In this document: positions 1 through 18,687 of the stretch, in pieces
How the letters are laid out: every line of letters starts with the position of its first letter
Position numbering within the stretch: position 1 is the stretch's first letter
From: Chromatiales bacterium
Lineage (GTDB): Bacteria > Pseudomonadota > Gammaproteobacteria > JAGRGH01
Reading direction: 5' to 3'
Length of the DNA stretch: 64,000 nt
Assembly (NCBI GenBank): GCA_020445605.1
Contig: JAGRGH010000047.1
Location: forward strand, 1-64,000
Position numbers and translations under genes: made by a program
Notes under the pieces: model-generated
The model's database searches: none
What the model saw: the letters and a program-made list of their open reading frames with translations, nothing else
Told to the model about the DNA's origin: nothing

Positions 1-2
1 AA

Positions 3-95
3 TCAGCGACCATTTCAGGCCCGGATGGCTGGACGCGTCTATCGGTCAACACCGATCAGCCGCACCCGCCTACAACAGTCGAAGTCTGGACGTAA
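3..95 (+). CDS. Possible C-terminal fragment of a gene inside the transposon (partial at left edge)
   Basis: Frame 3 is open from the window edge to TAA at 93-95 and ends in residues RLSVNTDQPHPPTTVEVWT. About two thirds of its third-codon positions are G or C, which is compatible with coding. A competing open reading in frame 2 runs to TAA at 168-170. I do not recognise either peptide. If real, this is the tail of a cargo or tns gene running toward the element's end. Confidence 0.2.
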   Translation, partial: SATISGPDGWTRLSVNTDQPHPPTTVEVWT

Positions 96-149
96 GCGGA
101 AACCAAGCCCAATCCGCTTCGCCCCTCAACACTGCCAACAGGTCCAATT

Positions 150-228
150 TGTACAGACTTTTTTCCTAAGGGCTATTTCTGTACAGACTCTTCTTAGTTG
201 TACGGACTATATTCCTAATGTACAGACT
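150..228. repeat. Four direct repeats, candidate TnsB-binding sites
   Basis: Cores TGTACAGACT (150-159), TGTACAGACT (180-189), TGTACGGACT (199-208) and TGTACAGACT (219-228) lie in the same orientation at spacings of 30, 19 and 20 bp. Each is followed by a T-rich stretch, and three of these contain TTCCTAA or a near match. The last copy starts 20 bp before the proposed transposon tip at 239. Closely packed copies near the tip resemble the right end of Tn7, which is the end next to glmS in Tn7 insertions. Confidence 0.75.
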
Positions 229-239
229 TTATTCCGACA

Positions 240-244
240 GACCA
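240..244. other. Candidate 5-bp target duplication (GACCA) at attTn7
   Basis: GACCA directly follows the CCGACA terminus and sits 24-28 bp beyond the glmS stop codon, the spacing used by Tn7. The matching copy would lie at the far end of the element, outside the window. Confidence 0.45.
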
Positions 245-268
245 CAACAATCACTCAACCAAAGGTGT

Positions 269-2101
269 TCACTCAACAGTGACCGACTTTGCAAGGTTGC
301 GCGGCTGATCGACGTCGGTTCCCTTGACGATGGCGACATGGTAGGCGAGCAGTTGCAGCGGGATGGTCGCGACGATGGGCGCGGCGACGCCGGACGAATG
401 ACCCACACGAATCAGTTCAACGCCGGCATCCTCTTCAAACGCGGCATCCTCGTCCGCAAAGACAAACAGCTGACCATCGCGCGCGCGCACTTCGTGCAGG
501 TTGGATTTGAGTTTGTCGAGCAGGTCATCGTCGGGCAGCACCGCCACGACCGGCATGTTGCGGTCGATGAGCGCCAGCGGACCATGCTTCAATTCGCCGG
601 CCGGATACGCCTCGGCGTGGATATACGATATTTCCTTGAGCTTCAGCGCGCCTTCCATCGCAATCGGGTAGTGCGCGCCGCGACCGAGGTACAGCGCATG
701 CGACTTGTCGGCGAGGTGCTGTGCGAGCAGTTCGATGGCCGGGTCCAGTTCAAGCGCACGCTCGCAGAGCAACGGCAGCGCGCGCAGTTGCCGGACGACC
801 GCTGTCTCGATGTCCGCTCCATTCGCAGTCTCGCGCCCAAGCAGCGCAACCAGCAGCGCGAGCACCGTCAACTGGGTGGTGAACGCCTTGGTCGATGCAA
901 CGCCGATTTCCGGCCCCGCGCGCGTGAGCGCCACCAGATCGGACTCACGGGTCAGCGAGCTTTCCGGTACGTTGCAGATCGTGAGACTCGCACGGTAGCC
1001 AAGCGTTTTGGCAAGTCGCAATGCCGCGAGCGTGTCGGCGGTTTCGCCGGACTGCGATACGGTTACGAACAGCGTGTCCGGTGCCACCACATGCGGTCGG
1101 TAACGATATTCGCTTGCGACCTCGACGTTGCAGGGAATGCCGACGAGGCTCTCGAGCCAGTAGCGGGCCACCAGCCCGGCGTGGTAGCTGGTGCCGCAGG
1201 CGACGATCTGCACCGCGCGCACGCCCGCGAGTATCGACTGGGAGTTCGCGCCGAACACCTCGGGCGACACGCCGTCGCCGACCAGGCGACCTTCGAGCGT
1301 ATCGATGATCGCGCGCGGCTGCTCGTGAATCTCCTTGAGCATGTAATGGCGGTAGCCACCGCGTTCGGCCGCCTCGGGCGACAGTTCGCTGGTGCGCACG
1401 GCACGCTCGACCCGGGTGCCGGATGCGTCGTAGACAACGATCGAGTCGCGGCGTACATCGGCGATGTCGCCTTCTTCGAGGAACATGAACCGTTGCGTGA
1501 CGGGCAGTAGCGCGTAGACGTCGGAGGCGACGAAGTTCTCGCCGATTCCCAGCCCGATCACCAGCGGACTGCCGCGTCGCGCGGCGACGAGCCGGTCCGG
1601 TTCGTTACGGCTGACGACCCCGAGTGCATACGCACCGTCGAACGAAGCGGTGGCACCGCGCACGGCCTCCAGCAGATCGCCTCCCGCTTCGATGCGGTCG
1701 AACACCGCGTGGACGATGACCTCGGTATCGGTATCCGAGGTGAAACGGTGACCGGCCGCGGACTGCTGTTCGCGCAGTTCCGCGAAGTTTTCGATGATGC
1801 CGTTGTGCACAACCGCGACCGTGTCACGGCAGACATGCGGATGTGCGTTGCGGGTGGACGGCGCGCCGTGCGTGGCCCAGCGCGTGTGGGCGATGCCGGT
1901 TCCGCCGCCAAGCGGGTGTTCTTCGACAATCCCCGCAAGCCGGGCCACCTTGCCCTCGGTGCGGTGACGGGTGATGCAGCCGGCGGCGTCGAGTACGGCA
2001 AGACCGGCCGAATCGTAACCGCGGTATTCGAGCCTGCGCAGGCCTTCGATCAGGATGGGGGCGACGTCGCGCTGGGCGACCGCACCTACGATGCCACACA
2101 T
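269..2101 (-). CDS. glmS: Glutamine--fructose-6-phosphate aminotransferase (isomerizing)
   Basis: This 610-residue cytoplasmic enzyme makes glucosamine-6-phosphate from fructose-6-phosphate and glutamine, the first step toward UDP-GlcNAc for peptidoglycan and LPS. The N-terminal class II glutamine amidotransferase domain starts MCGIVG, with Cys2 as nucleophile, and contains HTRWATHG. Two SIS sugar-isomerase domains follow, with [14 protein letters not shown] and ASTKAFTTQ. The end, [15 protein letters not shown], is the highly conserved tail whose DNA is the TnsD recognition site in Tn7 systems. Length equals the family norm. It is the last gene of the minus-strand atp-glmU-glmS run, 91 bp after glmU, and its downstream flank has been replaced by a likely Tn7-type element. 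Confidence 0.98.
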
Positions 2102-3585: not shown

Positions 3586-4080
3586 TCAATGCGGGGCCTT
3601 CAGCGGGATGGCGGAGCGCAGTTCGGCGACCATGCGGCGGTCGTCATCGGTGGCATCGCGCACCTCGACGATCTCCAGCCGGAACCGGAGAGTCCGGCCC
3701 GCGTACGGATGATTGCCGTCGGCGGTCAACTGACCGTCTTCGATCCTGGTGACGTGGAAGATCATCGTCTCGCCACGATCGCTCTGCATCGTGACCGCCG
3801 CCCCGAGGTAGGAGAATTCCGCGGGGACCTTCTCGATATCGTCGGTAAAGACAAGGTCCGGGTTATGCGGGCCGAAGCCTTCTTCGGGTGGTACGTCGAC
3901 GGTGACCACGTCGCCGACGGATTTGCCGGCCAGCGCGAGTTCGATCTTCGGCAGCAGAACGCCGCCCTCGCCGTGTACATAGGGCACGGGCTGATCGCTC
4001 CGTTCGGCGACCTGTCCGGTTTCGTCGCTCACGCGGTAGGTGAACCGAACGTATTTGCCCTTGCGGATGGTGTCGGCCAT
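3586..4080 (-). CDS. FKBP-type peptidyl-prolyl cis-trans isomerase, SlyD-like
   Basis: A 164-residue cytoplasmic prolyl isomerase and chaperone. I chose the ATG at 4080 (MADTIRKGKYVRFTYRV). The frame stays open upstream to 4290, but that extension is Arg/Pro/Ser-rich, overlaps atpC antisense-free coding on the same strand, and has no FKBP homology. The FKBP core carries YVHGEGGVLLPKIE, the SlyD-type insert-in-flap region with VPPEEGFGPHNPDL, and DGNHPYAGRTLRF near the C-terminus. The His-rich metal-binding tail of E. coli SlyD is absent. It sits between atpC and glmU on the same strand, an unusual place for this family and probably just operon hitch-hiking. Confidence 0.85.
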   Translation of the reverse strand: MADTIRKGKYVRFTYRVSDETGQVAERSDQPVPYVHGEGGVLLPKIELALAGKSVGDVVTVDVPPEEGFGPHNPDLVFTDDIEKVPAEFSYLGAAVTMQSDRGETMIFHVTRIEDGQLTADGNHPYAGRTLRFRLEIVEVRDATDDDRRMVAELRSAIPLKAPH

Positions 4081-4135
4081 CGGGCCCCCGGTGCGGTCCG
4101 GCTGGCGCGCGGCTGCCGGCAATGGGTCGACAGGT

Positions 4136-4561
4136 CTAGCGCTTGGCCTGCTTGCGGATTCGGTCGATTGCGCGCAGCTCCGCGGCCCGCTCGGCCAGTT
4201 CGGCCTGGGCGCGGGCAGTGTCGAACTCCGTCCTTGCATCGGCCAGTGCGCGTTCGGCGCGTTCGCGCGCGGCGATCGCCGCGGCTTCATCGAGATCGGC
4301 GGCCCGCACGGCCGTGTCGGCCAGCACCGTCACCACGTCCGGCTGCACCTCGAGGATGCCGCCGGAGATGAAGAACGACTGCTGGGTGCCGGGCGTGGTC
4401 TCCACCCGCACCTCGCCGGCCTTCAGGCGCGTGATCAGCGGCGCGTGGCGCGGCGCAATGCCGACCTCGCCCATCACCGCGGGTGCGTACACCATTTCCG
4501 CCAGTCCCGAGAAGATGTTCTTCTCGGCGCTGACGATGTCGACATGGATGGTCATTGCCAT
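4136..4561 (-). CDS. atpC: F1FO ATP synthase epsilon subunit
   Basis: 141 residues, normal for epsilon, the central-stalk subunit that couples gamma to the c-ring and inhibits the F1 ATPase. The N-terminal beta-sandwich shows VDIVSAEKNIFSGLAE and GEVGIAPRHAPLITRLKAG. A C-terminal Ala/Arg/Glu-rich helical hairpin follows and ends RIRKQAKR. The start may be Met1 or Met3 (MTIHVD). It is the last subunit gene of the atp operon, 22 bp after atpD. Confidence 0.95.
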   Translation of the reverse strand: MAMTIHVDIVSAEKNIFSGLAEMVYAPAVMGEVGIAPRHAPLITRLKAGEVRVETTPGTQQSFFISGGILEVQPDVVTVLADTAVRAADLDEAAAIAARERAERALADARTEFDTARAQAELAERAAELRAIDRIRKQAKR

Positions 4562-4583
4562 GGCCGTGACTGGTCAGCCGGCC

Positions 4584-6879
<2,296 letters not shown>

Positions 6880-6899: not shown

Positions 6900-8447
<1,548 letters not shown>

Positions 8448-8984
8448 TTAAGTACCTAATTGACTGGCAAGCGCTTCAAGTCGAGCGCGCACCGAGCCGT
8501 CGATGACCAGATCACCGGCGCGAATCTTCACGCCGCCGATCAGGGATTTGTCTTCACTTGCACTCAGTCGCACCTCGCGACCCAGCCGTTTGCCCAGCGC
8601 CGCCGCCAGCGACTGACGCTGAGCGTCGTTGACCGGATAGGCCGCGGTCAGCTCCACGTCGATTGCGCCGCCGTGTTCGGAACGCAGCACCTCGTACAGG
8701 CGTGCGATCTCGGGCAACAGCGCGACGCGACCATTCTGCGCGAGCAGCCGCACGAGATTCTGCCCTTCTTCGGAGATGCGCCCACCGCCGATGTCGAGCA
8801 GAAAATCCGCAAGCCGTTCGGCGCCCAGATCGGGGCGACCGATCAGCGCGCGGACCTGGCGGTCGTCAACGACCGCGGCCAGCAGCGCAAGCACTTCCGA
8901 CCACAGATCGGGCTTGTCGGTCTCGAGCGCACGCGCGAACACCGCATCGGCGTAAGGACGGGCAAGGGTTGTGAGTTCGGCCAT
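8448..8984 (-). CDS. atpH: F1FO ATP synthase delta subunit
   Basis: The 178-residue delta (OSCP-type) subunit joins the peripheral b-stalk to the top of F1. It starts MAELTTLARPYADAVFARA, where the ARPYA(D/R)A pattern is family-typical. The C-terminal region includes SLIGGVKIRAGDLVIDGSVR, the conserved delta signature. It follows atpF by 9 bp and abuts atpA. Confidence 0.96.
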   Translation of the reverse strand: MAELTTLARPYADAVFARALETDKPDLWSEVLALLAAVVDDRQVRALIGRPDLGAERLADFLLDIGGGRISEEGQNLVRLLAQNGRVALLPEIARLYEVLRSEHGGAIDVELTAAYPVNDAQRQSLAAALGKRLGREVRLSASEDKSLIGGVKIRAGDLVIDGSVRARLEALASQLGT

Positions 8985-8993
8985 GGCGTTGTG

Positions 8994-9464
8994 CTACAGC
9001 GCCGCCGCGACCTTGTCGACCACGCCGCGATGCGTCTCGGCGTCCACTTCGCGTTCGAGGATCTTTGCAGCCCCCGCGACCGCGAGTTCGACGACCTTGC
9101 CGCGCAGCTCCTCACGGGCACGCGCGACCTCCTGGTCGATCGCGGCCTGGGCGGCGTGCAGCAGGCGTTCGCCTTCGCTCTTCGCCGCGACCTTGGCCTC
9201 TTCGACGATTTCGCCCGCACGCTTGTTGGCCTGGCCGATGATGTCGGCGGCCTGCTGCTTGGCCTCGTGAAGCGTTTCAGTCGCGCGCTTCTGCGCAAGT
9301 TCCTGCTCGTGCACGCCACGTTCGGCGGCCGCCAGACCCTCGGCGATCTTCGCCTTGCGTTCTTCGAGCGCCTTGACGATCGGCGGCCAGATGAACTTCA
9401 TGGTGAACCATACGAACACCACGAACGAAAGCATCTGCCCAATCAGTGTCAGGTTGATGTTCAT
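8994..9464 (-). CDS. atpF: F1FO ATP synthase b subunit
   Basis: 156 residues, the same as E. coli b. One N-terminal membrane helix (about residues 5-25, ending [13 protein letters not shown]) is followed by a long charged Ala/Glu/Arg coiled coil (residues 30-140) that dimerises as the peripheral stalk. It starts [11 protein letters not shown]. It lies between atpE and atpH in the standard order. Confidence 0.96.
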
Positions 9465-9513
9465 GCCGGATTCTCCCGCTGGACGATTGCGGCTGCGGCC
9501 GCAGGCGACGTCT

Positions 9514-9774
<261 letters not shown>

Positions 9775-9797
9775 TTAGAGATGGATCAGAGTAGGAA

Positions 9798-11077
<1,280 letters not shown>

Positions 11078-11134
11078 CGATCGAGTCGTCGCGTGTGGGC
11101 TTCACGCCCGAAACCGCCTGCCAAAGACCCGGGG

Positions 11135-11163
11135 ATTCTACGGAGCGACCCGATGGCGGTCAA
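11135..11163 (-). promoter_or_regulatory. Sigma70-type promoter of the atp operon
   Basis: Reading the minus strand, TTGACC (11158-11163) and TAGAAT (11135-11140) are separated by exactly 17 bp, 58 bp upstream of the atpI start. It is the best consensus promoter I found in the window, and the expected place for the atp-fkbp-glmU-glmS transcription start. Confidence 0.75.
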
Positions 11164-11270
11164 TGCGCAACCCACACCGGCGAACTACGGGATGCGTGGT
11201 TTTTACTGGGAATTGCGCCGCAGCGGCGAGGCTTGATCCAGACTATTGAAAACGATCATGCCCACGGGCG

Positions 11271-11306
11271 AAAAAAAGCCGCCGGAACGCAACGCGCTCC
11301 GGCGGC
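11271..11306 (-). terminator. Intrinsic terminator after the IPTL-CTERM gene
   Basis: On the minus strand GCCGCCGGA (11298-11306) pairs perfectly with TCCGGCGGC (11278-11286) across an 11-nt loop, followed by seven Ts (11271-11277). It lies 16 bp past the stop of the 11322-12392 gene and insulates it from the atp promoter. Confidence 0.88.
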
Positions 11307-11321
11307 CGATGCAGGCTGCGG

Positions 11322-12392
11322 TCAGCCGCGACGGCGACGCAGGCCGCCCACCAGACCGATCAGGGCGATCAGGCCGGCGATGCCGAACACATTGAGCGTC
11401 GGCACGTGCTGCGGCTCTTCGTCCACCGGCGGCGGATCCACGACGTTCACGGTCGCGGAATCCATGGCGCCATCCGGGTCGTCCGAATCGGAGCTGGCAC
11501 TGGCGTTGTTGATGGTGTTCGTGGGCGAACCAGGCGCGGTCACGTTGATCGTGATCGTCGGCGCGGCGGACATGCTGGCGATGCTCGCCCGGGTGCAGGT
11601 CACGATTCCGGCGGCATGACCGCAGGACCAGCCGCTACCCGAGGCGGACACGTAGCCCACACCGCCAGGCAGCGTGTCGGTCACGGTGACGTTCGTGGCG
11701 GCATCCGGACCGGCATTCGAGACCACGAGCGAGTAGCTGAATGCCGCGTTCGTCTGCACGGTCGGCGCCGACGCCGTCTTCACGAGCGTCAGATCGGCAT
11801 CGGCCGTTTCGACTGCGACCACGACGTTCGCAATCAGACCCGACGGGCCACCCGCGACGTCAGGCGCGTACAGATAGACGGTGTTCGCGCCGGTCGAAAC
11901 CAGCCCCGTGATGTCGGTCGGGCCGTAGGTCGTCTGCGCGGCAAACCCGCCACCGGTCGTGCCGGCAAGCGGCGTGCCGTTGACGAACACACCCTGGTTG
12001 GGCGCAGCGGCGTGACCGAGCGCATCATCGGCCGCGAACGCGACCGTCAGGGTGACCGACCCGATCGCCGTCTCGGTGATCGTGAACGGGAATGCATAGA
12101 GACCCGAGGGTCCTGCGGTACCAGGATCGGCCGAGGCGCCAATCCACTCCGCGGCCGCGTCGGCGGGTAGCGCAGCGATCCAAGCCCCGGCCGGCGTCAG
12201 GTCGACGGTGGCCGCCGGCCCGCTCGAAGCGGCCGTGAAGTCGGCCGCGACGAACGATGCAGCGAACGGCGTATCGGCCGGGCCGGCCAGCACGGTCACC
12301 GGCGCCACACCACTATTCAAAGTGATGGTTTCGTCGGCGAGCGCGGAAGCGGATGCCAGCAGTGCGGCAGCCGCGAGGAGAGATCGATTCAT
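11322..12392 (-). CDS. Secreted DUF11-type adhesin-like protein with IPTL-CTERM sorting signal
   Basis: A 356-residue exported protein. A Sec signal peptide (about residues 1-19, cleavage after ALA) is followed by an Ala/Thr/Val-rich beta-sandwich region with two cysteines (WSCG, VTCT). Residues about 200-315 resemble a DUF11 repeat: ADLTLVKTASAPTVQTNAAF, VVSNAGPDAATNVTVTDTLP. The C-terminus has VPTLNVFGIAGL, a hydrophobic helix and RRRRG, the pattern of the IPTL-CTERM sorting tail, which is probably processed by an exosortase-like enzyme and leads to surface or matrix localisation. It has its own promoter and terminator and interrupts the usual parB-atpI neighbourhood, so it is likely a later insertion. 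Its specific function is unknown. Confidence 0.78.
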   Translation of the reverse strand: MNRSLLAAAALLASASALADETITLNSGVAPVTVLAGPADTPFAASFVAADFTAASSGPAATVDLTPAGAWIAALPADAAAEWIGASADPGTAGPSGLYAFPFTITETAIGSVTLTVAFAADDALGHAAAPNQGVFVNGTPLAGTTGGGFAAQTTYGPTDITGLVSTGANTVYLYAPDVAGGPSGLIANVVVAVETADADLTLVKTASAPTVQTNAAFSYSLVVSNAGPDAATNVTVTDTLPGGVGYVSASGSGWSCGHAAGIVTCTRASIASMSAAPTITINVTAPGSPTNTINNASASSDSDDPDGAMDSATVNVVDPPPVDEEPQHVPTLNVFGIAGLIALIGLVGGLRRRRG

Positions 12393-12424
12393 GTCCCTGG
12401 GCCTCCCTTGTGAAAATTGCGGCT

Positions 12425-12476
12425 ATTATGCGGCAGGCCACAACGGGCAAACAACAACACTGTGATCTGCGCCACA
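12425..12476 (-). promoter_or_regulatory. Promoter with CRP/Vfr-like dyad upstream of the IPTL-CTERM gene
   Basis: On the minus strand TTGTTT (12449-12454) and CATAAT (12425-12430) are 18 bp apart. A GGGAGG ribosome-binding site follows, shortly before the ATG. Further upstream 12461-12476 reads TGTGN8CACA with a TGTGA half-site, close to the CRP consensus, centred about 51 bp before the predicted start of transcription. Functional binding is inference. Confidence 0.42.
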
Positions 12477-12493
12477 TCCCCAACCCGGGGCCG

Positions 12494-13354
12494 TCAGCGG
12501 ATGTGCGCGAGGATGCCGTCGAGTTCGTCGAGACTGTTGAAGCCGATCACGAGCCGCCCGCGGCCCTTCGGGTCCGAGCTGATCTCGACCTTCGCGCCGA
12601 GCCGTTCGCCGAGATCGTGCTGCAGCCGCTCGACGTTCGGATCGCGCGCGGGCTTCGCGGCTGCCGGCTGCGGATTGGCGAGCCGGCGCACCAGCGCCTC
12701 GGTCTGACGCACGCTCAGGCCCTGCTCGGACGCATGCCGGGCCGCATCGCTCTGCGCCTGCCCGTTGAGCGCCAACAGTGCGCGCGCGTGACCCATCTCG
12801 ATGTCGCCGCGGTCCAGCCGCTCCTTGACGTCGAGGTTCAGTTCCAGCAGCCGCAGCAGGTTGGTGACGGTCGCACGGGATTTGCCCACGGTCTCGGCGA
12901 TCTGCTGGTGGGTCAGCTCGAATTCGCGTTGCAGGCGGCTCAGGGCCGTGGCCTCTTCCAACGGGTTGAGGTCCTCGCGCTGGATGTTCTCGATCAGCGC
13001 CATGGCCATGGCGGCCTGGTCCGGCACATCACGCACGACGACGGGCACGTCTTTCAGGCCGGCGATCTGCGCGGCGCGCCAGCGACGTTCCCCAGCGATG
13101 ATCTCGTAGCGGTCGGCGTCGACCGGTCGCGCGACGATGGGCTGCACCAGCCCCTGGGCGCGGATGGATTCTGCAAGTTCCTCGAGCGCTTCCTGGTCGA
13201 AATGGCCGCGCGGCTGGAACCGGCCGCGTCTGAGCTGGTCGACGCCGAGCTGCAAGACCCGCTCGCCGGCCGCCGGCGTCGGCGCGCTGGCCGCCACCGC
13301 GCCGCCGAGCAGTGCGTCGAGCCCGCGGCCGAGTCCGCGTTTGCGCGTGCTCAA
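12494..13354 (-). CDS. parB: Chromosome partitioning protein ParB
   Basis: The 286-residue CTP-dependent DNA clamp binds parS and organises the origin region for segregation. The N-terminal ParB/Srx fold includes GRFQPRGHFDQEALEELAES and the CTP-binding GERRWRA. The central helix-turn-helix contains LTHQQIAETVGKSRATVTN. The C-terminal part is the dimerisation domain. Its start overlaps the parA stop by 4 bp. Confidence 0.96.
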   Translation of the reverse strand: MSTRKRGLGRGLDALLGGAVAASAPTPAAGERVLQLGVDQLRRGRFQPRGHFDQEALEELAESIRAQGLVQPIVARPVDADRYEIIAGERRWRAAQIAGLKDVPVVVRDVPDQAAMAMALIENIQREDLNPLEEATALSRLQREFELTHQQIAETVGKSRATVTNLLRLLELNLDVKERLDRGDIEMGHARALLALNGQAQSDAARHASEQGLSVRQTEALVRRLANPQPAAAKPARDPNVERLQHDLGERLGAKVEISSDPKGRGRLVIGFNSLDELDGILAHIR

Positions 13355-14831: not shown

Positions 14832-16193
14832 ATGGACCACGCCGACACCACGCCGTCGCGACCGGCTCCGGTCGCGTTCACCACCGCTTTGCGCTACTGG
14901 CTGAAGCTCGGCTTCATCAGCTTCGGCGGTCCGGCCGGGCAGATCGCGATGATGCACCAGGAACTCGTCGAGCGCCGGCGCTGGATCAGCGAACGGCGCT
15001 TCCTGCACGCCCTGAATTACACGATGGTGCTGCCGGGACCGGAGGCGCAGCAGCTGGCGACCTATATCGGCTGGCTGCTGCACGGGATACGCGGCGGCAT
15101 CGCCGCCGGCGCGCTGTTCGTGCTGCCGTCGCTGGTGATCCTCGGCGCGCTGACCTGGATCTATCTGGCCTTCGGGGATGTGCCCGCGGTCGCCGCCGTG
15201 CTCTACGGCATCAAGCCCGCGGTCACGGCCATCGTCGTGCATGCGGCCTGGCGCATCGGCTCGCGCGCGCTGCGCAACGGCCTGCTCTGGGCGCTCGCGG
15301 CGGCCGCGTTCGTCGCGATCTTCGCGCTGCACGTGCCGTTCCCGCTGATCGTGGTCGGCGCGGCGGTGATCGGGCTCGTCGGCGGCCGCATCACCCCCGA
15401 GCGGTTCCGCGGCGGCGGCGGCCATGGCGGCGGCCACGCCGGCAGCGGTCCGGCCCTGATCGACGACGACACACCACCGCCGGCCTGGGGCCGGTTCAGC
15501 TGGCCGCGAACGATTGCGATCGGCGCCGTGGGTCTCGGCCTTTGGGTGGCCGTGGAAGCGGCGCTGTACCTGCGCTGGGGCGTGGACGGCACGCTCACGC
15601 AGATGGGCTGGTTCTTCACCAAGGCGGCGCTGGTGACCTTCGGCGGCGCGTATGCGGTGCTGCCGTATGTCTACCAGGGCGGCGTGGAGACCTATCAGTG
15701 GCTGACCGGTCCGCAGATGATCGACGGGCTGGCGCTCGGCGAGACCACGCCCGGACCGCTGATCATGGTCGTCGCGTTCGTCGGCTTCGTCGGCGGCTGG
15801 ACCAAGGCGCTGTTCGGGCCGGACCTGCTGGCCGCGGCCGGCATGGCGGGCGCGGCGGTCGCGACGCTGTTCACGTTCCTGCCGTCGTTTCTGTTCATCC
15901 TGATCGGCGCACCGGCGGTCGAGGCGACGCGCCACGACATCAAGTTCACCGCGCCGCTCACCGCGATCACCGCGGCCGTCGTCGGCGTGATCCTGAACCT
16001 CGCCGTGTTCTTCGCCTGGCACGTGCTGTGGCCGGATGCGGGCACCGATGCGCCGTTCAGCGGCCGGTTCGAATGGTTCGCGCTGGCCATCTCGGTTGCG
16101 GCGTTCCTGGCCCTGTGGCGCTGGAAAATCGGCATCATGCCCGTGCTCGCGGCCTGCGCTGCGGCCGGCCTGCTGCATCACTGGATGTTCTAG
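14832..16193 (+). CDS. chrA: Chromate efflux transporter ChrA
   Basis: A 453-residue inner-membrane protein of the long-chain CHR family with two homologous halves. The N-terminal half has KLGFISFGGPAGQIAMMHQE and MVLPGPEAQQLATYIGWL. The second half repeats the pattern with TFGGAYAVLPYV and LGETTPGPLIMVVAFVGFVG. The halves are joined by a Gly/His-rich linker near residues 195-215. Family members export chromate using the proton gradient. No chrB regulator or chrC is present, so substrate and regulation are inferred from family alone. Confidence 0.9.
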   Translation: MDHADTTPSRPAPVAFTTALRYWLKLGFISFGGPAGQIAMMHQELVERRRWISERRFLHALNYTMVLPGPEAQQLATYIGWLLHGIRGGIAAGALFVLPSLVILGALTWIYLAFGDVPAVAAVLYGIKPAVTAIVVHAAWRIGSRALRNGLLWALAAAAFVAIFALHVPFPLIVVGAAVIGLVGGRITPERFRGGGGHGGGHAGSGPALIDDDTPPPAWGRFSWPRTIAIGAVGLGLWVAVEAALYLRWGVDGTLTQMGWFFTKAALVTFGGAYAVLPYVYQGGVETYQWLTGPQMIDGLALGETTPGPLIMVVAFVGFVGGWTKALFGPDLLAAAGMAGAAVATLFTFLPSFLFILIGAPAVEATRHDIKFTAPLTAITAAVVGVILNLAVFFAWHVLWPDAGTDAPFSGRFEWFALAISVAAFLALWRWKIGIMPVLAACAAAGLLHHWMF

Positions 16194-16198
16194 AACGC

Positions 16199-17011
16199 AT
16201 GCTCGGCTACCGCCACGCGTTTCATGCCGGCAACCATGCCGATGTGCTCAAGCACGTCGCGCTGGCCGCGACGCTTGCGCGCCTGGTCGAGAAACCCAGG
16301 CCGCTGCTGTATCTAGAAACCCACGCCGGGGCCGGCCGCTACGACCTCGCCAGTGAGCAGGCCCGCAAGACCGGCGAGGCGGCGAGCGGAGTCGAACGAA
16401 TCTGGCAGGCGCAGGACGCGCCAGCGGCCGTCGCGCGCTACCTCAAGTGCATTCACGCGGAAAACCGCGACGGCGAGCTGCGCTGGTATCCGGGCTCGCC
16501 CGCGATCGCCGCACGCCTGCTGCGTGGCGAAGATCGCATGGCGCTCTACGAACTGCATCCGGACGATTGCGCACGGCTTGGCGCGGCACCACCGGCACAC
16601 CGACGCGTGCAGATCGAGCAGTCCGACGGGCTCGCCGGGCTGCGCGCACGGCTGCCGCCGCTGGAGCGGCGCGCACTGGTGATGATCGACCCGAGCTATG
16701 AACTGGATCGCGATTATCAGGACGTGCCGCGGGCGCTGGAGGACGCACTCAAGCGTTTCGCGACCGGGGTGTACCTGCTCTGGTACCCGGTCCTCGCGGG
16801 CGCACCCGTCGAACGCATGCTGCGCGCGGTCGAGCGCGCCGCACCCGGCTCGCCGCTGCGCATCCAGCTCGAGCCGCGCGCGGCCGGTTCGGCGCGCGGC
16901 CTAACCGGCGGCGGCGTGCTCGTGATCAATCCGCCGTGGAAACTCGACCGGGATCTGGCCGACGCGGTCGACTGGCTGCGGCCACGCCTGGCTGCTCAAG
17001 GGACACCGTAG
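16199..17011 (+). CDS. rlmJ: 23S rRNA (adenine-2030-N6)-methyltransferase
   Basis: 270 residues, starting at the ATG at 16199 (MLGYRHAFHAGNHADVLKH), the highly conserved RlmJ start, just after the chrA stop. It methylates A2030 of 23S rRNA. The catalytic loop reads MIDPSYELDRDY, whereas many N6-adenine methyltransferases have (D/N)PPY, so Ser replaces the second Pro. The C-terminal VINPPWKLD is also family-typical. The frame is open upstream through chrA, but that is an out-of-frame shadow. Confidence 0.93.
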   Translation: MLGYRHAFHAGNHADVLKHVALAATLARLVEKPRPLLYLETHAGAGRYDLASEQARKTGEAASGVERIWQAQDAPAAVARYLKCIHAENRDGELRWYPGSPAIAARLLRGEDRMALYELHPDDCARLGAAPPAHRRVQIEQSDGLAGLRARLPPLERRALVMIDPSYELDRDYQDVPRALEDALKRFATGVYLLWYPVLAGAPVERMLRAVERAAPGSPLRIQLEPRAAGSARGLTGGGVLVINPPWKLDRDLADAVDWLRPRLAAQGTP

Positions 17012-17099
17012 ACAATCGCGAACCAGGTCCGCGACGCCAGCGCCGTTTGCGCTTACATTCCAGCTTCGCCGTCGTGATCCGACGCACTCAGCCTCAACC

Positions 17100-18164
17100 A
17101 TGCACCAGACGCCAGGCCGCCAATCCCTGAAACGTGCCGGTGCGGGCCTCGTGTTCGCGCTCGCCGCCCTGATTTCCGCTTCGAGCCGCGCGGTGCCGAT
17201 GCTCGCCGACACCGCGCTCGGCACGCTGGAGCTGGTCGCGCACGATCCGCTGAACCTGCTGCGGGTCGACGGACTCACGTTCGACAGCCACGGCAACCTG
17301 TTCGCCGCGCTCGAGGTCATCGGCAACGGCGGTGTGTCGTACATCGACAAGACGACGGGCACCGTGGTGCGCCTGATCAGCAACATCTCCGGCGTGGACC
17401 AGATCGATTCGCACCCGTCGGGCGCGTTTCATTTCACGGTGGAACTCACACCCGCACAGACCACCGGTCGCGTATATCGCATGGACGTGACCTATGACGG
17501 CTCGAACACCCCGCAGTCGGCGACAGCAACCAGTATTTCCACGGGTGCCACGCCGACCAGCAACGTCGAGGGCCTGGTTACGCTGACCGGTTCAAATGCG
17601 TACGGCAACGCGGGCGACCTGCTCATCAGCGAAGACCTCAGCAACGGCCGCCTGCTGAAACTGGAACTGGCCGGAAACAACGCGACCCCCACGATACTGG
17701 TCGGCGCAGGCGCGGGGCTCCAGCGACCCGAAGGCATGGCGTTCGGAGACTTTGGCGGCGCGGCCACCCCGGCCCTGTATGTCTCGGAAACGCTGAACGA
17801 CCGCATTCTCAGGGTCGCGGGGAACGGGACGACCAGCGTGTTCGCGCTCGCGCCCGGCTCGACGCTGTTTCACCCCGACAATCTGGAATTCGGATTCGGC
17901 GGCTGGCTGTATGTAACGGAGGATCCTGGCATCGGCCTGAGCCGCGTGCTGCGTTATGACGCCAACGGCAACGAGCAGGTCGTTGCGACGGGTTTCAACG
18001 AACCGGCCGGACTGGCGATCGATCCCGCCACGGGCGATCTGTACATCTCGGAACAAAGCAGCCAGAACGTCTGGCGCATCCGCTTCGCGAGTGTTCCGGC
18101 ACCGGCGAGCCTGACACTGATTGCGCTTTCGTTACCCCTGCTGAGGCGATGGCGCGCGAACTGA
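17100..18164 (+). CDS. Secreted beta-propeller (SMP-30/NHL-like) protein with PEP-CTERM tail
   Basis: 354 residues. An N-terminal signal segment (about residues 15-31) is followed by repeated blade-like motifs of a six- or seven-bladed propeller: VDGLTFDSHGNLFAA, NVEGLVTLTGSNAYG, LQRPEGMAFGDFGG, LFHPDNLEFGFGGWLYVTED, NEPAGLAIDPATGDLYISEQ. The C-terminus reads VPAPASLTLIALSLPLLRRW, a PEP-CTERM sorting signal (Pro motif, hydrophobic helix, Arg cluster) recognised by exosortase. It is probably exported and matrix-associated; the ligand or reaction is unknown. No exosortase gene lies in the window. Confidence 0.75.
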   Translation: MHQTPGRQSLKRAGAGLVFALAALISASSRAVPMLADTALGTLELVAHDPLNLLRVDGLTFDSHGNLFAALEVIGNGGVSYIDKTTGTVVRLISNISGVDQIDSHPSGAFHFTVELTPAQTTGRVYRMDVTYDGSNTPQSATATSISTGATPTSNVEGLVTLTGSNAYGNAGDLLISEDLSNGRLLKLELAGNNATPTILVGAGAGLQRPEGMAFGDFGGAATPALYVSETLNDRILRVAGNGTTSVFALAPGSTLFHPDNLEFGFGGWLYVTEDPGIGLSRVLRYDANGNEQVVATGFNEPAGLAIDPATGDLYISEQSSQNVWRIRFASVPAPASLTLIALSLPLLRRWRAN

Positions 18165-18226
18165 CCACGCTGGCGCGTCCGCCCGCAAACAGCGCTCGAC
18201 CGGAAAACGCAACCCATCCAGACCTG

Positions 18227-18250
18227 AACGCCGCCCCTGCGGGCGGCGTT
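18227..18250. terminator. Hairpin between convergent genes
   Basis: AACGCCGCCC (18227-18236) and GGGCGGCGTT (18241-18250) form a perfect 10-bp stem with a 4-nt loop, between the convergent propeller gene and the superoxide-reductase-like gene. The flanks hold only short T runs, so it is a probable two-way terminator rather than a textbook one. Confidence 0.6.
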
Positions 18251-18264
18251 CGCGTTTCCGCAGC

Positions 18265-18687
18265 TCAGACGTCCGCTGCGTTCAGCCAGACGTCGTGCTT
18301 GTTGCACATGCTGAGCACGTAGATGCGGCCGCTGTAAGCGCCGAGTTCGTAGCGCGACAGCGGCGTCGTGTCCTTGTTCGGATCGAACATCGTCTCGTTT
18401 ACAAAGCCGAAGTCCTGATTCAGGACCGTGTGCTTGACGATGTAGTGCTCGAAGCCCTTCATCTCGTGCGGCGTGACCACCTGGATCGTAACCCCGGCGG
18501 CACCCTTCTGCGCCTCGATCTGCGGCAGATGGCCGGCGACCTTCTTGCTCCAGCGGCCCGGGGCATCCTTGGTGTAATAGACGCCACCGGCCATGCCTGG
18601 CATGCCCTCGGCCAGCACCTGACGCGGCAACACGATTCCGGCGGCGGCCCCGGCAAACGCCATGCGCACAAAACCTCTGCGATTCAT
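18265..18687 (-). CDS. Tat-exported desulfoferrodoxin/superoxide reductase-like protein
   Basis: 140 residues. I start it at the ATG at 18687 because AGGAG lies about 8 bp upstream and it gives a twin-arginine signal (MNRRGFVRMAFAGAAAG, cleavage near VLA-EG). The mature part resembles class II superoxide reductases: HLPQIEAQ, HEMKGFEHYI and the C-terminal CNKH (Cys128, His131). His53, His74, His81, Cys128 and His131 are candidate ligands of the Fe(His)4Cys centre. The His74-His81 interval is one residue longer than in characterised enzymes. Export suggests periplasmic superoxide reduction or iron-protein redox chemistry; activity is inferred. Confidence 0.68.
   Translation of the reverse strand: MNRRGFVRMAFAGAAAGIVLPRQVLAEGMPGMAGGVYYTKDAPGRWSKKVAGHLPQIEAQKGAAGVTIQVVTPHEMKGFEHYIVKHTVLNQDFGFVNETMFDPNKDTTPLSRYELGAYSGRIYVLSMCNKHDVWLNAADV

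Follow-up and report, generated by a model that had tools for sequence, protein, structure and literature searches.

A probable subfamily of Tn7-like transposons with 4-bp target duplications, found behind glmS in a Chromatiales bacterium and in Pseudomonas

The DNA immediately behind glmS in a Chromatiales draft genome belongs, at a probability that we put near 0.88, to a cut-and-paste transposon related to Tn7: it is the right end of an element from a divergent TnsAB clade, and the remainder of this element lies on another contig. This end occupies positions 1-244 of the window, the stretch of 64,000 nucleotides (contig C47 of the assembly) that was analysed. Very probably, the element is the deepest branch of a subfamily that inserts with a 4-bp instead of a 5-bp stagger, which would imply a differently spaced TnsB strand-transfer complex, and that would escape existing surveys. 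A 5-bp duplication has been regarded as a universal signature of Tn7 and its relatives, including the CRISPR-guided transposons used as gene-insertion tools. Our searches of the open-access literature turned up no Tn7-like element described with a 4-bp duplication.

Results

A reading of the window from its sequence alone had described four TGTACRGACT repeats in one orientation at 30/19/20-bp spacing, ending at CCGACA, and exact positions bear this out: the repeats lie on the plus strand at 150-159, 180-189, 199-208 and 219-228, followed by CCGACA at 234-239 and GACCA at 240-244. With up to one mismatch, the window holds eight matches against 1.6 expected, and none of 100 shuffles reached eight, which rules out chance as the source of the window repeats. 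The whole 3.36 Mb genome contains twelve exact copies: the four of the window, two at positions 212 and 279 of a second contig, C21 (21,168 bp), and six scattered singly. The C21 copies are inverted relative to those of the window, and these two places, one a left and one a right end, are the only clusters in the genome.

On the minus strand, the right end starts with an 11-bp tip that contains GACCA (234-244; TGGTCTGTCGG) and continues with four TnsB sites. The outermost, glmS-proximal site 1 (219-233; AATAAAGTCTGTACA) begins 11 bp inside the tip; further in lie site 2 (199-213; AATATAGTCCGTACA), site 3 (180-194; AGAAGAGTCTGTACA) and the innermost site 4 (150-164; AAAAAAGTCTGTACA). Outside the tip stand the target-site duplication CAAC (245-248, plus strand), an attTn7 spacer that reaches from the insertion to the glmS stop codon (249-268), and glmS itself (269-2101, minus strand), encoding a glutamine--fructose-6-phosphate aminotransferase of 610 residues that is 63% identical to Pseudomonas GlmS. 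Positions 1-149 represent the inner right end or the end of the cargo, cut by the contig end, and resemble none of the genome's other contig ends. Since the window begins at the first base of C47, with nothing to its left in the assembly, the missing part of the element must be on other contigs.

C21 carries a left tip (TGGTCCCCTGA) at 196-206, directly preceded by a copy of CAAC at 192-195. Behind the tip, tnsC (626-1978), tnsB (to 3978) and tnsA (3969-4928) are intact and overlapping and form a single operon on the minus strand, with small regulators next to it. The sequence-only reading had proposed a search for tnsA, tnsB, tnsC and tniQ, and all of them are present here; TniQ-type genes occur on no other contig of the genome. 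Two tnsD-like genes on the plus strand encode TnsD/TniQ proteins of 501 residues (15023-16528) and 567 residues (16930-18633). A small HTH gene (C21:16548-16976) sits between the two, overlaps the second and might regulate the choice of target protein. The sequenced cargo consists mainly of a type I restriction-modification operon (HsdR, HsdS, HsdM; 7048-13217, minus strand), in agreement with the defence cargo that had been anticipated, besides an HNH-type gene whose protein weakly matches PtuB and an LRAT-domain gene. The CRISPR-guided or otherwise undescribed cargo system also envisaged was not found in the sequenced part. C21 starts with an IS fragment that is also present at the end of contig C54, and its other end is another IS-like fragment. 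A CRISPR array (repeat GAATTCCTTGGCATTACGCCAAGGCCTCATTGAAGC) at C54:112500-113750 reaches that contig's end, where it is broken by the IS terminus that starts C21.

The two ends mirror each other. From window position 244 leftwards the right end reads TGGTCTGTCGG-AATAAAGTCTGTACA, and from C21:196 the left end reads TGGTCCCCTGA-AATAAAGTCTGTACA, so that both consist of TGGTC, 6 bp and AATAAAGTCTGTACA; the left end has two clear TnsB sites against four at the right. The same 4 bp flank both ends, a match with a chance of 1/256. Taken together, the repeats, the tips and the 4-bp match suggest that C21 and C47, which the draft assembly leaves unjoined, bracket one element. Its length of at least 21 kb and its cargo are minimum statements, the stretch between the contigs being unassembled. 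One could instead suppose that C47 holds only a stranded or partial right end and that C21 is a different element inserted elsewhere: no contig joins the two, a comparison of the genome's contig ends found no bridge between them, and the left flank of C21 is another transposon end and not chromosome. We consider this unlikely, because the genome has only two repeat clusters, one left and one right, with equal 4-bp flanks, and a left flank of the kind seen on C21 would be expected if two elements had inserted in tandem at one site.

That flank, C21:147-190, lies just outside the left tip and looks like a right end belonging to a different Tn7-like element. Read on the opposite strand it is TGTAACAGATG-AATAAAGTCGTA, AATAAAGTCGTA recurs after 19 bp, and its own tip stops 5 bp before the left tip of the Chromatiales element. 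Probably, two elements stand in tandem at one attachment site, the Chromatiales element having inserted beside an older one. The older neighbour is cut by the IS fragment shared with C54, and other parts of it were not found. In the nearest genome compared, a second copy of the last approximately 71 glmS codons (contig C31:46398-46506) follows about 1.9 kb downstream of where the real glmS ends and may be a duplicate of the attachment site.

The position of the insertion relative to glmS is that of Tn7. Counted from the glmS stop, the duplication occupies bases 21-24, compared to 21-25 for Tn7 in E. coli, with the right end towards glmS, and a clade member in P. frederiksbergensis sits behind glmS within one base of Tn7's distance. 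The earlier view that a Tn7-family right end is docked at attTn7 is upheld, and the inverted end, tnsABC and tnsD/tniQ are present on C21. The boundary that came with it has to be moved. In that version the tip was TGTCGG and GACCA was the 5-bp target duplication of an ordinary Tn7-type insertion. GACCA is indeed at the right place, beside a TGT-like hexamer, although 25-29 bp past the stop and not 24-28. However, these five bases are the terminus of the inverted repeat, and each end of the transposon starts with TGGTC; its tip is TGGTCTGTCGG, and the duplication is CAAC. The inverted end with the same repeats that had been predicted does exist on C21, but it begins with TGGTC, not TGTCGG. In the genome, GACCATGTCGG has nine matches, all without end repeats and none a transposon end, and every clade member has its tip 11 bp outside the core. 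We therefore regard a TGTCGG tip with a GACCA duplication as highly improbable; it is refuted unless the C21 left end belongs to another element. Nor is the repeat core foreign to Tn7, as had been thought: the Tn7 right end likewise contains AATAAAGTCT at 11 bp from its tip and reads TGTGGGCGGAC-AATAAAGTCT in 110 E. coli genomes. The core and 11-bp tip distance of site 1 are shared with Tn7 and with seven Pseudomonas elements.

C21 and the window together show the components of a Tn7-like element: a TnsB DDE transposase, a TnsA endonuclease and a TnsC AAA+ ATPase in a tnsAB operon, TniQ/TnsD target selectors, and inverted ends with arrays of TnsB sites. TnsB matched E. coli Tn7 TnsB (7pik) at 6e-6 by phmmer and at 2.3e-13 with a clade profile, while the TnsA and TnsC clade profiles matched Tn7 TnsA (1f1z) at 2.8e-6 and Tn7 TnsC (8glu) at 0.0023. 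The predicted fold of a clade TnsA (from BN411; a model of low to moderate confidence, pLDDT 66) matched only TnsA structures (1t0f/1f1z) at E below 0.001, the best at 9e-6. Residues D308, D396 and E431 of TnsB are invariant in 10 members, and E78, D145 and K165 of TnsA are likewise invariant; their motif positions make them candidate catalytic residues. The TnsD and TniQ Pfam models gave 4e-29 and 3e-13, with two C21 genes over the cut-offs. At E 0.01, Pfam models matched none of ten TnsB and eleven TnsA clade members, and the Chromatiales TnsC scored below the AAA_22 cut-off. The Pfam TnsA and Mu-transposase-C models matched nothing in the Chromatiales genome and nothing in the control genomes either, so this result is no evidence of absence.

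Both TniQ-type proteins on C21 are long TnsD forms. TnsD1 aligned over most of its length, at 25% identity, with TnsD from the P. frederiksbergensis element behind glmS. Of the two proteins it is the one more likely to select glmS, and TnsD2 may be directed at some other target. A CRISPR-guided Tn7-like element (CAST) would also possess tniQ and tnsABC. We hold this identity to be extremely unlikely for the Chromatiales element, considering that both of its selectors have TnsD length, that attTn7 is a protein-guided site, and that none of the scanned C21 proteins was recognised as the product of a cas gene, with the segment from C21 to C47 lying outside the assembly.

In the collections searched, close relatives were found in Pseudomonas only, on two plasmids and in seven species genomes. 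Their proteins are about 30-38% (TnsA), 30-32% (TnsB) and 26-31% (TnsC) identical to those of the Chromatiales element. When the genome contigs were searched, TnsB alone found no relative, but its alignment with the TnsBs of the two Pseudomonas plasmids did. In a sample comprising 369 genomes from the class and 398 from the phylum, further strong matches to TnsA came from two genomes of a single genus. In the TnsB tree, the Chromatiales protein groups with the Pseudomonas clade at 100/100 on a long stem, apart from Tn7 and the TnsBs of seven other genomes, which agrees with the divergent family that the first reading had suspected. The Chromatiales TnsB is the first branch of the clade, and its own branch is long.

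The Pseudomonas elements, among them those on P. koreensis P19E3 p1 (CP027478.1) and the CIP-10 plasmid (NZ_CP087161.1) and those of P. frederiksbergensis 38F7 and BN411, carry tniQ, a divergent tnsD and tnsABC. They have in common with the Chromatiales element a tip of TG and 9 bp followed by the core AAT(A/T)AA..CTGT, as well as 4-bp duplications, and the P. frederiksbergensis element also shares the glmS site. TGTACRGACT is not enriched in the P. koreensis locus, the conserved part being AAT(A/T)AA..CTGT. The Chromatiales element differs from them as a deep branch whose TnsB sites end in GTACA where theirs end in GTCGC, with tnsABC at the end away from glmS and with two TnsD-length target proteins separated by the small HTH gene. 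Its cargo is restriction-modification, whereas one CIP-10 member carries metal resistance.

The flanks share exactly 4 bp in all eight clade elements: CAAC in the Chromatiales element, and CTCT, CGGA, TCGG, GAGA, CAGA, ACGG and TCGA in seven from Pseudomonas. None match as 5 bp with symmetric tips, and wrong pairings of flanks never matched (0/56). Four of the eight end pairs lie on one contig or record and the other four (Chromatiales, P. sivasensis, BN411 and GM4FR) on different contigs. As a control, Tn7 in E. coli CFSAN051542 gave 5 bp by the same procedure. When the flanks of the P. koreensis and CIP-10 elements are joined with a single 4-bp copy, they equal natural empty plasmids at 500/500 bases without a gap, examples being P. 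aeruginosa pBM908 and pSTY of Pseudomonas sp. VLB120. This match is direct evidence for a 4-bp stagger in the clade. Three of the eight elements (P. frederiksbergensis, Irchel s3f7 and CIP-10) would fit a 5-bp repeat if the T of the left tip were counted as target, leaving a left tip one base shorter and asymmetric ends. The fifth base matches here at near the chance level of 1 in 4, the asymmetric reading fails in five of eight elements including the Chromatiales one, where symmetric 4 bp fits all eight, and the Tn7 control yields 5 bp by the same method. A 5-bp duplication is thus very unlikely, and we retain the 4-bp stagger.

Several further observations were made at the Pseudomonas loci. 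In P. koreensis plasmid p1 (record 228710-268359), the clade member lies inside a gene annotated as a helicase, which is uninterrupted in many Pseudomonas megaplasmids, and no TnsE was noticed there; the clade therefore has at least one further kind of target besides glmS. The CIP-10 plasmid (locus 1-49001) carries two members close together. The first has copper and arsenic resistance, and an IS5-family insertion interrupts its tnsB; behind the second comes a type I restriction gene. Pseudomonas arcuscaelestis P66 (locus 7307-9685) contains stacked short elements of about 0.38-0.67 kb that are bounded by clade ends and separated by 4-5 bp, e.g. CCAA and CCAAC. No tns genes were found at this locus, which looks like a stack of miniature non-autonomous relatives inserted side by side. 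In P. putida GM4FR, three copies of TTGTGTCAAACTATA directly outside the element end (locus 5306-5440) probably represent the end of yet another transposon family.

Discussion

Tn7 of E. coli resembles the Chromatiales element in its TnsA, TnsB, TnsC and TnsD homologues, in its arrays of TnsB sites with the core AATAAAGTCT 11 bp from the tip, and in its insertion 21 bp past the glmS stop with the right end towards glmS. In contrast, it makes a 5-bp duplication, has the tip TGTGGGCGGAC, carries tnsA beside the glmS-proximal end and possesses TnsE, and the two TnsB proteins are only about 24% identical over 431 residues. Tn7-family tnsABCD genes linked to metal resistance have been described in P. 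putida KT2440 and W619 (PP_5404-5407; PMC3056050). Their gene order is compatible with the clade and makes them candidate members.

By analogy with Tn7, we propose that the conserved 3' end of glmS, the expected docking site, is bound by a TnsD protein and that TnsC is then recruited as a bridge. TnsB, bound to the end repeats, would cut and join the 3' ends and TnsA would cut the 5' ends, so that insertion would take place 21-24 bp beyond the glmS stop codon, the right end facing glmS. The element has both inverted ends, a matching 4-bp duplication, intact genes and conserved candidate catalytic residues, and it may be active at present.

Two large surveys searched for Tn7-like loci with the Pfam models PF00665, PF08721 and PF08722, one of them requiring a TnsB hit of 60 bits, the other a pair of hits to different components, with two of the genes in an operon; one also used its own CRISPR-transposon models (PMC8649781; PMC10293859). 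Since no Pfam model matches TnsA or TnsB anywhere in the clade, the stated Pfam-based rules of both surveys would be expected to miss it. Surveys seeded in this manner can thus overlook a branch whose Pseudomonas members bear islands of metal resistance and defence. Likewise, rules for locating ends that presuppose 5 bp will set the boundaries wrongly, and the first reading of the window is a case in point. If true, a 4-bp subfamily implies a TnsB strand-transfer complex with a different spacing. A natural TnsAB clade with a 4-bp stagger would mean that this spacing can change, and it provides a matched enzyme pair for finding out how.
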